The position numbers were made by a program, and so were the translations under genes. The notes under the pieces were generated by a model. The model ran no database searches. It was not told the DNA's origin and saw nothing but the letters and a program-made list of their open reading frames with translations. Below, piece by piece: positions 18,301 to 42,187 of a stretch of 64,000 nucleotides of DNA. Source of the stretch: Mitsuokella sp. oral taxon 131 str. W9106 (GTDB lineage: Bacteria > Bacillota > Negativicutes > Selenomonadales > Selenomonadaceae); assembly GCF_000469545.1 (NCBI RefSeq), contig NZ_KI273057.1:1-64000 (forward strand). The letters run 5' to 3'. Numbering within the stretch: position 1 is the first letter of the stretch; each line of letters starts with the position of its first letter.

Positions 18301-18905
18301 CCATTAATCCGAACGCTGTGCAGGAGTATGAGGAGCTGCGGGCACGCCATGCGTTCCTTGACAAGCAGGCGACCGACCTTGAGACAGCGAAAGGCGATCT
18401 CGCGCGCATCATCATGGAGATGGATGCCGTCATGACGCGCCAATTCAAGGAAGCCTTTGCGAAAATACAGGAATACTTTGCAGAGATTTTCGCGCGCCTC
18501 TTCGGCGGCGGCAAGGCGGAGCTGAAGCTTATAGACGAGACGGATGTCTTAAATACGGGGGTCGACATTCTCGTCGTCCTGCCACAGAAGAAACGGCAGA
18601 ACCTATCGGCGCTTTCAGGAGGCGAGCGCGCACTCACCGTCATCGCGCTGCTCTTCTCGTTCCTGCGCTACAGGCCATCGCCATTTTCAGTGCTCGATGA
18701 GATCGATGCGCCGCTCGACGAAGCGAACGTCGCGCGCTTCGGCAGCTTTCTAAAGGAATTTGCCGAGGGCACGCAGTTCATCGTCGTCACGCACCGCAAG
18801 GGGACGATGGAAGCCGTCGACACGATGTACGGCGTGACGCTCGAGGACGCGGGCGCCTCGAAGGTGCTTTCCGTCAAGCTTGATGAAGTGGGACCGGCAT
18901 CCTAG
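15351..18905 (+). CDS. smc: Chromosome segregation protein SMC
   Basis: SMC forms the ATP-dependent condensin ring that organises and segregates the chromosome. The 1184-residue length is standard. The N-terminal ATPase half carries Walker A GPNGSGKSN at 31-39 and QNRIDDILNSRPEERR. Long charged coiled coils flank a hinge around residues 515-670 (ending GGSLSGG). The C-terminal half has signature LSGGERALTVIALLFS and Walker B FSVLDEIDAPLD. The start is a GTG two bases after the LysR stop, so translation is probably coupled. ftsY follows within 20 bases. Confidence 0.98.
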   Translation: MQLKRLEAYGFKSFADKISIEFDKGITAIVGPNGSGKSNITDAIRWVLGEQNVRNLRGTKAEDIIFTGSAERRALGLAEVSLIFANEGDLPVDFREVVVTRRLYRSGESEFYINRSRCRLKDIYNLFADTGIGHDGMSIIGQNRIDDILNSRPEERRAFFEETAGITKYRNRKRETVRKITDTDSNLVRVRDIIHEIENQLEPLARHAERTRSYNALNESYKACKLTKLAGDFACESARKAENDVKLEKARDEEVEASAQIRVAEAEKEMLDQGILTIEAAMQEKAQENEAQRQKIEQAEREMAALRERQRQSEAAHKRILARRAELSSEIAAIVAEIGKLTALEQDQKEHLQKSEAALREEKEEASKVAARVRLCRDEARTAREKRAEKQQEFAQKQQELAVLDRDIEKEEEGKDNRAQEIRAAKESLAQYEKRKEKLAHEKEAQENERSAARREQAATEKKEQEMRRALRDLDAHIMALRQKQTAAESKVQVLARMQQAYEGFGKATKAVLKSHESWRGGIAGAIAELIDVPKDCVTAIETALGGSLQNIVTQDTDTAKAAIAFLKRERLGRVTFLPLSTLVTRRPPDEAVRGAAGVIGWANAIVKTEAAYQRAIDFLLARTLVVDTLDHALGLARRHGQRLRIVTLGGELLNPGGSLSGGSRGHAETSFLNRGGEIELLRTSLQEWHTERATLAAAKKQLIEDATKVETARHTAEEAVRAAGLACAEMRVNLERLNENFSEQQGKVKALEEAAARASESFAKVQNRRVFLVRAVRAAEQEVNAFTRAEEAARERLADAEEEANTFAASIQEHELSRAVLEQEAMRSREHILLRQRDKKRSERALIENEQEERDLAELAGRSTERLASLSHDAKAWQEVFHAGKAARDALYAKRMETIEKSQAADQKTRAIGRKHSEIQARIHQLELSGAKMELALSEWQETILAEYGLTPERAEEEAIDLPPQELHAKMKELERQIAALGPINPNAVQEYEELRARHAFLDKQATDLETAKGDLARIIMEMDAVMTRQFKEAFAKIQEYFAEIFARLFGGGKAELKLIDETDVLNTGVDILVVLPQKKRQNLSALSGGERALTVIALLFSFLRYRPSPFSVLDEIDAPLDEANVARFGSFLKEFAEGTQFIVVTHRKGTMEAVDTMYGVTLEDAGASKVLSVKLDEVGPAS

Positions 18906-18924
18906 GATAAGGGGAGATCATGCT

Positions 18925-19839
18925 ATGGGATTTTTTGACAAACTGAAAAAAGGGCTGGATAAGACGCGCGAGAATCTCACGAACAAGATCGAGAAACTCG
19001 TCATCGGCTACGCTGACATCGACGAAGATTTCTTGGAGGAACTCGAAGAGGCGCTCATCCTGGCAGACGTCGGAATTCAGACGACAGAAACGCTCATGGA
19101 GGCGGTGCGCAAGGGCATTAAGAAAAAGGAGATCAAAAGCCCGGAGGATCTAAAACCGTTCCTTCAAAAAGAAATCACGGCGATTCTCGAAAAGGGAGAG
19201 AATACGATGCATACGGCAGAGGCGGGACCGACCGTCCTCCTCGTCATCGGCGTCAACGGCGCGGGAAAGACGACGACGATCGGCAAGCTCGCCGCTTACT
19301 ACAGGGGACAGGGAAAGAATGTCCTGCTCGCCGCTGCCGATACGTTCCGCGCCGCCGCCATCGATCAGCTTGAGGCGTGGGGACGCCGCACGGGCGTGCC
19401 AGTCATCCGCCATGATGAGGGGTCGGATCCCGCTGCCGTCGCATTCGACGCGGTCAAGGCTGCCGTCGCGCGTAAGGTCGACCTTCTCCTTATTGATACG
19501 GCAGGCCGCTTGCAGACGAAGTCAAATCTCATGCAGGAGCTTGAGAAGATCAACCGAGTCATCGGCAGGGAAATCAAAGGTGCGCCGCATGAGACGCTGC
19601 TCGTCCTCGATGCGACGACGGGGCAGAATGCCATCAGCCAAGCGGAACTTTTCACAAAGGCTGCGCCGATCACGGGCGTCGTTCTCACGAAGCTCGACGG
19701 CACAGCAAAGGGCGGCGTCGTCATCGGGATCAAGAGCCAGCTTGCGATTCCTGTCAAGTGGATCGGCGTCGGCGAGAGCGTGGAGGATCTGCGTCCTTTC
19801 GTTGCACAAGACTTCGCAAAAGCACTCTTTGCAGGCTGA
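18925..19839 (+). CDS. ftsY: Signal recognition particle receptor FtsY
   Basis: FtsY docks SRP-ribosome complexes at the membrane for cotranslational insertion. The 304-residue protein has an N-terminal amphipathic start (MGFFDKLKKGLDKTREN), a helical N domain to about residue 90, and a GTPase domain with G1 GVNGAGKTTTIGK at 109-121, DTFRAAAIDQL, G3 DTAGR and G4 TKLDGTAKGG. It lacks the long acidic A domain of enterobacteria, as is usual in Firmicutes. The ATG at 18925 follows AAGGGGAG. The smc-ftsY pair is conserved in Firmicutes. Confidence 0.97.
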   Translation: MGFFDKLKKGLDKTRENLTNKIEKLVIGYADIDEDFLEELEEALILADVGIQTTETLMEAVRKGIKKKEIKSPEDLKPFLQKEITAILEKGENTMHTAEAGPTVLLVIGVNGAGKTTTIGKLAAYYRGQGKNVLLAAADTFRAAAIDQLEAWGRRTGVPVIRHDEGSDPAAVAFDAVKAAVARKVDLLLIDTAGRLQTKSNLMQELEKINRVIGREIKGAPHETLLVLDATTGQNAISQAELFTKAAPITGVVLTKLDGTAKGGVVIGIKSQLAIPVKWIGVGESVEDLRPFVAQDFAKALFAG

Positions 19840-19855
19840 AGAAGCACATTTTTGT

Positions 19856-19885
19856 TTGAATAAAAGCATTTCCCTGTGATACAAT
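19856..19885 (+). promoter_or_regulatory. ileS promoter
   Basis: TTGAAT, an 18-base spacer and TACAAT end about 65 bases before the ileS start. The short leader contains no T-box anti-terminator. Confidence 0.6.
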
Positions 19886-19949
19886 AGAGCCTGTTAGCTT
19901 GCAATCGTAGCCATGCGAGAATTGTTTTGATAGGCAAGGAGGAATCGGC

Positions 19950-38633: not shown

Positions 38634-39785
38634 TTGCGATTTTTACACTATGCTGCGGCGGTTTTTGTCGTCCTTGCCGCCACTTTGCTGCCCGTCCCCC
38701 GCATGGCAAGCGCAGAAGAGCCAGCCATCACGGCGGACGCTGCCATTCTCATCGAGACGGAGACGGGACGCGTGGTATGGGAGAAGAATGCCGAAGAGCG
38801 CCGCTTCCCCGCGAGCATGACGAAGATGATGACGTGCATCCTCGCACTTGAAAACGTCAGTCCGCGCGCGGAAATCTTCATTACCCCGAATGCCGAGCAG
38901 ACGGAAGACACGCCGCTCGGCATCCTCGCAGGCGAGCGGCTGACGGCAGATGCGCTTTTGACCGGCATGATGCTGTGCTCCGATAACGGCGCGGCCGTCG
39001 CCGTTGCCGAGCATATCGACGGCGGCGTGACGAGCTTTGCGAAACGCATGAATGAAAAGGCGGCTGAGCTCGGCATGAAGGATACGCACTTTGCCAACCC
39101 GAATGGCTTGCCGAACCCCATGCACTATTCCACGGCGCACGACATGGCGCGTCTTGCTCGGTACGCGATGAGGAACAAGGCGTTCCGCTCGATCGTCGGG
39201 CAGCAAAACGCCGGCATTCGCTGGACGTTCCCAAAGGATAAGTTTTTGCCGGTCGAGAACACGAACAAGCTCCTCGGTCACTACGACGGTATCACGGGCA
39301 TCAAAACGGGATGGACGAATGCGGCGGGGGGCTGTCTCGCAGCGTCTGCCGAGCGCAAAGGCGTCTCGCTCATCGCAATCGTCATGCACGCACCGACACC
39401 AAATGATCGTTTTGACGACGCGCGCAAGATGCTCGACTACGGTTTTCGGCACGTCACGATGGTGCGGGGCATTACGAGCAGCAGGACTGCGCGCAAGGTT
39501 TGGGTCAAGGGTGGGCAGGAGGCGCGAACATTTGTCCGCCCTGTCGAGGATATCAACTACCCGATCATCGATGGCGAAGACGCAAAGAACTACACGATCC
39601 ACTGTGACGTGCCGAGTGTCATCGCTGCGCCTGCGAAAGACGGTGAAATCGTCGGAAAGATGACGCTCCTATATAAAGGGGAACCCGTCGGCACCGTCAA
39701 TATGGCAGCCGATAAAGTGTTGCCCGGATTCAGCATCGGCTCCTTTTTTGTCGGCCTCTTCGAGGGTGTTATTAACCGGATTTGA
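38634..39785 (+). CDS. Serine-type D-Ala-D-Ala carboxypeptidase (DacF-like)
   Basis: This low-molecular-weight PBP trims the terminal D-alanine of peptidoglycan stem peptides in the periplasm. The 383-residue protein has a signal peptide (LRFLHYAAAVFVVLAATLLPVP..ASA). Catalytic motifs are SMTK with Ser61-Lys64, SDNGA near 119, and KTGW near 223. The C-terminal PBP5-like domain ends with a probable amphipathic anchor (SFFVGLFEGVINRI). The start is TTG at 38634 with AGGAGG 8 bases upstream and a promoter 40 bases upstream. The frame is open back into radA but that part is not family-like. Confidence 0.94.
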   Translation: MRFLHYAAAVFVVLAATLLPVPRMASAEEPAITADAAILIETETGRVVWEKNAEERRFPASMTKMMTCILALENVSPRAEIFITPNAEQTEDTPLGILAGERLTADALLTGMMLCSDNGAAVAVAEHIDGGVTSFAKRMNEKAAELGMKDTHFANPNGLPNPMHYSTAHDMARLARYAMRNKAFRSIVGQQNAGIRWTFPKDKFLPVENTNKLLGHYDGITGIKTGWTNAAGGCLAASAERKGVSLIAIVMHAPTPNDRFDDARKMLDYGFRHVTMVRGITSSRTARKVWVKGGQEARTFVRPVEDINYPIIDGEDAKNYTIHCDVPSVIAAPAKDGEIVGKMTLLYKGEPVGTVNMAADKVLPGFSIGSFFVGLFEGVINRI

Positions 39786-39919: not shown

Positions 39920-40795
39920 TCACTTTAGCAACGCATGTGCCTCGCTGGCATTTACGATCTCTCCCATGAGCATTTTTCCTTGAATATCAGGGTGCAGCCC
40001 GTCGACCGAGAACGATTCATCCAGATCCGTCCCCGTCTCATTGTAGAAATACGGTTCGAGGTCAATGCAGCAGTCGTGCGAGCGAATCCACATGTTGATC
40101 AGGCGAAGCTTCTCATTCCAATTCGGATCGGTCTCCGCATGAAACGCAAACCGGATATTCGTTGGGTTGATCGGTATGAGCGTCATAAAAATCGGGCGTA
40201 TGTCGTGCGCACGGCACTTCTCTTCGATCGCTGCGAGGTCGTCAATGATGTCCTGTGCGGAGATCGTCGAGGTGCGCAGGCCGTTTGAGCCAGTGAGAAT
40301 CAAGAGATTTTGGGGATGGAATGGCAAGACGTCCTGCTCGAAACGGTCGCACGTCATGCGTGAGGTGTCGCCGCTCCTGCCGAGGTTGAGACAGGGAAAG
40401 TCGAAATACGTCGTATAGCTGTACTCAAGTGCCGAGGGCGGGTAGGAGATGGATCCGCCGCCATGCGTGATGCTGTCGCCAAGCACGGCAACTTTGACAC
40501 GCTTTGGGTGTTTGTTCACGACGAAATGCGCCGCATCCGACCATGTGCCGATCGCGTTTCCTTCCGCATCGATGGCGCGCACGCGCCAGTAGTAATCGCC
40601 AGCGTAGGGGCGTGGGTACTCGTCGTAGCACGTCGTGGCGGCATTTACGATCTTGCTCCACGCCCGACCAGGGTCAGGCTGCGTGCCGTTTGGCTGCGCG
40701 GGAGGATCCGCCATGAGCTCGACTTCGTAGCGCATGATGCCGTGCAGCGGGATCCAGTTGTAGACGGGGTAGAGCGGTTGCTTGAAGTGCGGCAT
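39920..40795 (-). CDS. SGNH hydrolase, C-terminal part of a gene split by an amber codon
   Basis: This 291-residue ORF contains a fibronectin-III-like stretch (about 10-95, with YYWRVRAIDAEGN) followed by a GDSL/SGNH esterase domain. The catalytic block I GDSITHGGG is near residue 107, the asparagine block is TGSNGLR near 167, and block V DGLHPD is near 270. Such enzymes de-acetylate or de-esterify extracellular polymers. It has no ribosome binding site, no signal peptide, and begins directly after and in frame with the TAG of the ORF above. It is therefore likely the second half of a single ~545-residue protein. Confidence 0.8.
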   Translation of the reverse strand: MPHFKQPLYPVYNWIPLHGIMRYEVELMADPPAQPNGTQPDPGRAWSKIVNAATTCYDEYPRPYAGDYYWRVRAIDAEGNAIGTWSDAAHFVVNKHPKRVKVAVLGDSITHGGGSISYPPSALEYSYTTYFDFPCLNLGRSGDTSRMTCDRFEQDVLPFHPQNLLILTGSNGLRTSTISAQDIIDDLAAIEEKCRAHDIRPIFMTLIPINPTNIRFAFHAETDPNWNEKLRLINMWIRSHDCCIDLEPYFYNETGTDLDESFSVDGLHPDIQGKMLMGEIVNASEAHALLK

Positions 40796-41557
40796 CTAGT
40801 CGTATTCGTTGAGCAGCGGGTGAGTCGGAAGCGGCAAGCTCGAATCGAGCGTGACTGCCTCCGCCTTGGAGAATTCACCGATGGGCTGCAAGTGGAGGTC
40901 GAGTGCACGGACGCGCCAATAGACTACGCCGGAGTCTGCATAAGGGCGCAGATCGGCTTGCCAGCCGTTTGTGAAAATTTCGTGCGTGCTCTCCAGATGC
41001 TTCGGACTCGCTGCGAGAACCGTACCGCCTTCGGCATCCGGCGGCAGGGAAAGGATCTCAAGCTCGTAGCAGACGGCACCAGGAACGTTGTGCCAAACGA
41101 GAAACGGCATGAGGCTTGCAGGAGTATCTTTGCCGTAATGCGAGATGATGGCGGGATGCTTTGGCCGCTTTGGAAAATCCGGATTGGCTGCGGGGACAGC
41201 GTCGCTGCCGACCTTGCCGAAAATGCCGTACGCCGTGACGCGGTACGATGTCGGAATCGCCGTTCGCGGCAATTCGATCGACGGCTCACGCGTGTAATAG
41301 GAACCAAAGAGATGGAATCCCGCCTCGCCTTCGACGAGTCCCGTCGTCGGTGACAGGACGTCGACTTTGTAGTAGCAAGGGTAGGGGAGCGGTGTCCACG
41401 AAAGGTAGAGACGTCCGTTTTTCTCTGCAAATGCAGTTTCGATCGTGTGCTTTTGGAGTCCGAGCGTATCGTATCGTTCAACGGTGAAGGAAAGAGCGAC
41501 GACGTAGGCTGTTATGAGAAAAAGAAAAAGCAGGAAATGCGGAAGTTTTTTTATCAC
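40796..41557 (-). CDS. Signal-anchored FnIII-like protein, N-terminal part of the same split gene
   Basis: This 253-residue ORF starts at GTG 41557 (AGGT upstream). The N-terminal helix LPHFLLFLFLITAYVVALSFTV would anchor or export it. Two fibronectin-III-like repeats follow, each with a PAx..Yel.i...YWRVRALD pattern (ELEILSLPPDAEGG, VVYWRVRALDLHLQP). The third repeat is cut off: the ORF ends HPLLNEYD-TAG, and the next codon is the ATG of the SGNH ORF, whose first residues complete the repeat. One ancestral gene interrupted by TAG explains both ORFs. Confidence 0.78.
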   Translation of the reverse strand: MIKKLPHFLLFLFLITAYVVALSFTVERYDTLGLQKHTIETAFAEKNGRLYLSWTPLPYPCYYKVDVLSPTTGLVEGEAGFHLFGSYYTREPSIELPRTAIPTSYRVTAYGIFGKVGSDAVPAANPDFPKRPKHPAIISHYGKDTPASLMPFLVWHNVPGAVCYELEILSLPPDAEGGTVLAASPKHLESTHEIFTNGWQADLRPYADSGVVYWRVRALDLHLQPIGEFSKAEAVTLDSSLPLPTHPLLNEYD

Positions 41558-41644: not shown

Positions 41645-42187
41645 ATGCGAATGAAAAAGCAAGGACTCCTTCTCGTCCATACGGGCGATGGAAAAGGAAA
41701 GACAACGGCAGCACTCGGTCTTGCCCTTCGTGCATGGGGAGACGGTATGCGCGTATGCATCCTGCAGTTCATTAAGGGCAGCTGGGAGTATGGCGAGCTG
41801 CGTGCCATCGAGGCGCTCGCGCAGGCAGACGGACGCATCCAGATCACGCAATGCGGTCTCGGCTTCACGCGCAAAGGCGAGAAAAAAAACGTGGCACATA
41901 GACGGGCTGCAGAGGCAGCACTCGAAAAAGCGCGTGTGGCGATCACGTGCGGTGCATGGGATCTCGTCATCTTGGACGAACTCAACTACGCTGTGAAGTT
42001 CGGGCTCGTGTCGGAAGCAGAACTCATGGCTCTTCTCGATTTGCGTCCACTCGGACTCCACTTGCTCATCACGGGACGCGATGCGTGCCCTGCACTCATC
42101 GAACGTGCCGATCTCGTGACGGAGATGCGTCTTGTGAAGCATCCTTTCCAACAGGGGATCAAGGCCCAAAAGGGCATCGAGTTTTAA
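41645..42187 (+). CDS. cobO: Corrinoid adenosyltransferase (CobO/BtuR)
   Basis: The enzyme transfers the adenosyl group of ATP to the cobalt of cob(I)yrinic acid a,c-diamide or cobalamin. The 180-residue protein begins with a P-loop HTGDGKGKTTAAL at 12-24. Family motifs are QFIKGSWEYGE, WDLVILDELNYAV and LITGRDACPALIERADLVTEM. The ATG at 41645 has AAGGAAGG 5 bases upstream. The 87-base intergenic region is too short for a complete cobalamin riboswitch. It is a single-gene unit ended by a strong terminator. Confidence 0.96.
   Translation: MRMKKQGLLLVHTGDGKGKTTAALGLALRAWGDGMRVCILQFIKGSWEYGELRAIEALAQADGRIQITQCGLGFTRKGEKKNVAHRRAAEAALEKARVAITCGAWDLVILDELNYAVKFGLVSEAELMALLDLRPLGLHLLITGRDACPALIERADLVTEMRLVKHPFQQGIKAQKGIEF

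Follow-up and report, generated by a model that had tools for sequence, protein, structure and literature searches.

A predicted SGNH/GDSL hydrolase gene interrupted by a probably recent in-frame TAG in Mitsuokella sp. oral taxon 131

Two adjoining open reading frames in a 64,000-nucleotide stretch of Mitsuokella sp. oral taxon 131 str. W9106 (contig NZ_KI273057.1, hereafter the window) most probably represent one ancestral gene in which a Gln codon was converted to TAG by a recent C-to-T change in this lineage, giving a young pseudogene or a strain-level polymorphism (estimated probability about 0.72). A nonsense mutation is indicated by the continuous gene present in relatives, by the sense codon found there at the site, and by the undamaged distal half. 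An ordinary recent mutation, or else a base error, is the most likely origin of the stop; a novel mode of enzyme control is less likely.

Reading of the open frames of the window placed both halves in one frame on the minus strand, from 41557 to 39920. The first ORF (41557-40796, 253 aa) starts with GTG and ends in TAG at 40796-40798; the second (40795-39920, 291 aa) opens with the ATG that forms the very next codon, 0 nt apart. These coordinates bear out a previous sequence-only reading of the window, which had described same-frame ORFs separated by TAG and followed by an in-frame ATG. The features of the locus are compiled in Table 1. On the other side of the hydrolase gene, a D-alanyl-D-alanine carboxypeptidase-like gene on the plus strand ends at 39785. 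Of the 34 orthologue loci fetched, 26 have cobO/cobA beside the hydrolase gene in divergent orientation. Several of the rest are short or truncated, and the other window neighbours that were tested gave no match at these loci.

Table 1. Features of the interrupted hydrolase locus (window positions).
Feature	Position	Strand	Description
Upstream part	40799..41557	-	253 aa, GTG start; membrane helix and two Ig/FnIII-like domains; homologous along its whole length to the first half of the continuous ORF of relatives
In-frame TAG	40796..40798	-	Codon 254 of the ancestral gene; linker between second and third Ig/FnIII-like domains
ATG after TAG	40793..40795	-	Internal Met codon conserved in relatives (ATG in 46/54) rather than a start that evolved as such; without SD pairing
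Downstream part	39920..40795	-	291 aa; third FnIII-like domain and predicted SGNH/GDSL hydrolase domain (Pfam matches, model)
cobO/cobA (cob(I)yrinic acid a,c-diamide adenosyltransferase)	41645..42187	+	Divergent neighbour; the neighbourhood is conserved

A search with the downstream ORF against 60 relatives yielded matches in 54, mostly within open frames of 440-560 codons (paralogues included), and a scan of the named collection yielded 34 loci. The codon alignment contained 65 relative rows, from which 10 duplicate loci were removed to give 55 distinct relatives; L035 ended short of the site. One of the 55, the contig-cut row of the congener G001 (L012), has the sense codon ACC at the site but is truncated by its contig on the upstream side, and it was dropped before the later counts (n = 54). 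When the codon was compared in relatives, as the sequence-only reading had proposed, a sense codon inside one open frame was found at the TAG position in all 55 distinct relatives. Two separate genes in all relatives, the arrangement which that reading had set against an interrupted gene, were looked for and not found; relatives carry one gene, and a two-gene organisation was rejected, with none found among the relatives searched. Gln occupies the site in half of the 54 full-length relatives (27, of which 18 use CAG and 9 use CAA); 13 have Arg, 6 have Asp, and the remaining 8 have other residues. Given the frequency of Gln, a single C-to-T transition (CAG to TAG) explains the TAG. The ancestral Gln is likely rather than proven: this position of the linker is variable, and the closest relatives, the congeners G001 and G002, have ACC (Thr) there instead of Gln. 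The following codon is ATG in 46 of the 54, so the TAG-ATG adjacency was inherited by chance and gives no evidence of a built restart.

An AlphaFold model of the read-through protein built with 55 sequences had a mean pLDDT of 91.5 and a pTM of 0.88. It comprises an N-terminal membrane helix (residues 4-29), three Ig/FnIII-like beta domains (about 41-110, 136-237, and 265-347, boundaries read by eye from the strand list of the model), and a C-terminal alpha/beta domain of the SGNH/GDSL hydrolase type (about residues 356-540). In Foldseek, the beta domains resembled tandem fibronectin type III structures, while the C-terminal domain resembled GDSL acylhydrolases of solved structure, sialate O-acetylesterases among them; the sequence search agreed. 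In the Pfam profile search, the downstream ORF scored 47.4 bits for PF13472 (cut-off 32.9, E = 4e-12) and 27.8 bits for PF00657 (cut-off 23.6, E = 3.3e-6). All 55 rows, that of the window included, share G360, D361, S362, G423, N425, D519, and H522; we take these residues to represent the GDS block, the Ser/Gly/Asn blocks, and the DxxH block of SGNH/GDSL enzymes. By both profile scores and motif blocks, the downstream ORF is a predicted SGNH/GDSL hydrolase. The catalytic half thus resembles the families PF13472 and PF00657 in exceeding both cut-offs and in a modelled fold like that of known GDSL acylhydrolases, whereas a membrane helix and three Ig/FnIII-like domains stand in front of it here. 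A literature search for an SGNH hydrolase with FnIII domains in Selenomonas returned no paper.

The TAG corresponds to residue 254 and falls between the strands 233-237 and 265-269, in a linker formed by model residues 238-264. The sequence-only reading had proposed that the stop interrupts an FnIII-like repeat completed on its far side. This was not confirmed: in the model, HPLLNEYD and PHFKQPLYPVYNW belong to the linker and to the border of the domain that follows, and self-similarity agrees with an inter-domain position, residues 8-90 of the downstream ORF matching the end part of the upstream ORF and residues 149-233 of the latter matching the downstream ORF. Termination at the TAG would, according to the model, separate the anchor and two FnIII-like domains from the third FnIII-like and the catalytic domain.

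Signs of decay were sought by a leave-one-out test, in which each sequence was left out in turn and the columns invariant in all others were scored. The window gene changed 0 of 27 otherwise invariant columns upstream and 0 of 65 downstream of the stop. By hand calculation, the latter value limits neutral amino acid change since the loss to less than about 4.5% (95%). Long-standing decay was rejected by this test: no relaxed selection is visible after the stop, although the mutation may be too young for any to show. Faster evolution of the distal half was rejected as well, the residual of the window gene from the regression of distal on proximal identity, +0.005, falling inside the spread of the 55 rows. 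Protein identity to the nearest relatives is about 60-68%, a distance at which synonymous sites are presumably saturated. With none of the 65 distal columns changed, the stop is young, or is a base error, or leaves a product of continuing importance. Against a simple loss, complete conservation of the distal half would also follow from continued synthesis of some full-length enzyme.

The read-through query was also compared with 189 genomes of the family, of which 184 gave a match at E 1e-60 or better, some of them probably paralogues. A hand count of the 150 orthologue rows listed gave 148 without an internal stop. The two exceptions were the window gene (one TAG) and an orthologue from another species, G199 (one TAA; L125, G199:C278:15778-17376), in which the stop lies at a different place, within the catalytic domain. 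As this orthologue also differs at the invariant Gly of the first catalytic block, its stop appears to be an independent event in a separate pseudogene, or to reflect poor sequence. Among the matches listed, nonsense codons in the hydrolase gene are, as far as the sequences tell, rare and scattered across the family. Searches for further copies found none on plasmids and only two short, weak matches (24 residues, 46%) on viral contigs, which are not orthologues.

In-frame stops in bacterial genes are widespread and mostly short-lived according to the available passages of Belinky et al. 2021 (PMC7918605), in which a TAG/CAG site serves as worked example. The window gene resembles the cases in these passages in its single in-frame TAG, at a position where relatives mostly have Gln codons, and in its undamaged flanks. 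It differs in that their set, as described there, admitted a stop only when at least two species shared it, whereas here it occurs in one genome.

On the preferred reading of a recent nonsense mutation, the ancestral gene of about 545 codons would have encoded a membrane helix, three Ig/FnIII-like domains, and a C-terminal SGNH/GDSL hydrolase, and a Gln codon would most likely have become TAG by a single, recent C-to-T transition in this lineage. Translation ending at the TAG would leave a membrane-anchored stub without the catalytic domain. Any product started at the following ATG would lack the N-terminal helix, the only membrane anchor, and would stay in the cytoplasm. With a noncatalytic stub and an unanchored restart product, little or none of the surface enzyme would therefore be left. 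The genome has an intact paralogue at another place (471 codons, 40% identity, G000:C1:27434-28231), which may soften this loss.

Of the three options that the sequence-only reading had offered, the recent nonsense mutation was the best supported. A base error was retained as the next, though clearly less probable, option: the TAG would be an assembly error or a minority allele, and the gene would be intact in the organism. Such an error would give an identical sequence, and it accords with a stop confined to one of the genomes compared and with a gene that is otherwise undamaged. Against it, the assembly appears to be of good quality, with 25 contigs, 100% completeness, and 0.07% contamination. 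In crude gene calls, the window showed no further clear case of a gene divided by an in-frame stop; the remaining same-frame pairs were either neighbouring distinct genes or frames lying opposite an ORF of the plus strand. Real mutations, moreover, are commonly of the C-to-T kind.

For the third option, a controlled readthrough or reinitiation that sets the amount of hydrolase, no positive support was obtained. TAG is an ordinary stop in this genome, ending 10 of the 50 crude gene calls of the window (the hydrolase gene and probably some false calls included). No tRNA with a CUA anticodon was detected among 48 tRNA hits in the genome, an incomplete survey in which Cys and Ile tRNAs were also unseen. 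The absence of Cys and Ile tRNAs from the 48 hits suggests that the assembly may lack some tRNA genes, perhaps in rRNA operons. The best PylS score was 26.2 bits, below the cut-off of 178.15, which one of 14 control genomes passed. Stop reassignment, a suppressor tRNA, and pyrrolysine thus found no support in these results, the tRNA survey being incomplete. Programmed readthrough would need a stop at the site in relatives, and this was found in 0 of 55 distinct relatives.

The claim that no ribosome binding site precedes the ATG held: the duplex energy with an assumed 16S tail was +0.1 kcal/mol, compared with -3.6 kcal/mol at the GTG start and a median of -2.55 kcal/mol for 176 internal in-frame ATGs in long ORFs of the window. 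Control of the hydrolase by readthrough or reinitiation is thus opposed by a TAG absent from all 55 relatives, an ATG that predates the stop, the missing SD pairing, and the failure to find a suppressor tRNA or PylS. The value of -3.6 kcal/mol at the GTG start of the window gene (41557) itself represents weak SD pairing, and many relatives have an ATG start.

A weaker form, which we regard as rather unlikely, is leaky expression that matters to the cell, with a near-cognate Gln tRNA reading UAG at a low level or a restart at the adjacent ATG, and the stop acting as a short-lived down-regulator. The distal half without decay is consistent with it, and Belinky et al. 2021 (PMC7918605) report, in the text available, many bacterial in-frame stops with dN/dS below 1, one of them TAG/CAG. 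Short stop-start distances permit reinitiation, and one near zero favours it, according to the part of PMC10666635 used here; the excerpt of PMC6728339 describes the SD as helpful, not always essential. In that same excerpt, however, SD removal lowered reinitiation in four of five E. coli pairs, and the ATG here has no SD pairing. The window gene resembles the termination-reinitiation pairs of these excerpts in that stop and start lie close together (about 10 nt as criterion, 0 here), but differs from them in having no SD, no overlap, and no conserved pair in relatives. The restart product would also be without the membrane helix, none of the 48 tRNA hits was a suppressor, and none of the relatives examined has the stop. 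Low-level readthrough or weak restart is possible; no sign of selection for either was found.

It is more doubtful still that the TAG is kept in the species as a throttle on the surface hydrolase, whereby low Gln insertion at UAG or an SD-less restart at the ancestral Met would set a small dose. In the model, both halves end at a domain boundary, so that the split products could fold. An evolved two-gene organisation, with an anchor protein and a separate hydrolase as a coupled pair, is strongly disfavoured: the TAG lies at a domain boundary and the ATG abuts it, but every relative examined at the site has one continuous gene, the ATG is older than the TAG and has no SD, and the catalytic half would be without an export signal.

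The case is mostly a matter of annotation: both ORFs are best treated as a single gene with an interruption, and no gene of its own should be annotated for the 291-aa ORF from its ATG. Were the stop to turn out fixed in the species, with a distal half that stays conserved, the gene would serve as a clean natural experiment on basal UAG readthrough, or on restart without an SD, in a Negativicute.

Two further observations concern open frames. Three consecutive same-frame open frames on the minus strand at 18873-19893 lie opposite the plus-strand ORF 18880-19839 and are most likely shadow frames caught by the crude gene caller. In the relatives' rows L006 and L073, the open frame of the hydrolase gene continues for about 250 codons ahead of the usual start, to a total of at least 790, either as a fusion or as a plain open leader.
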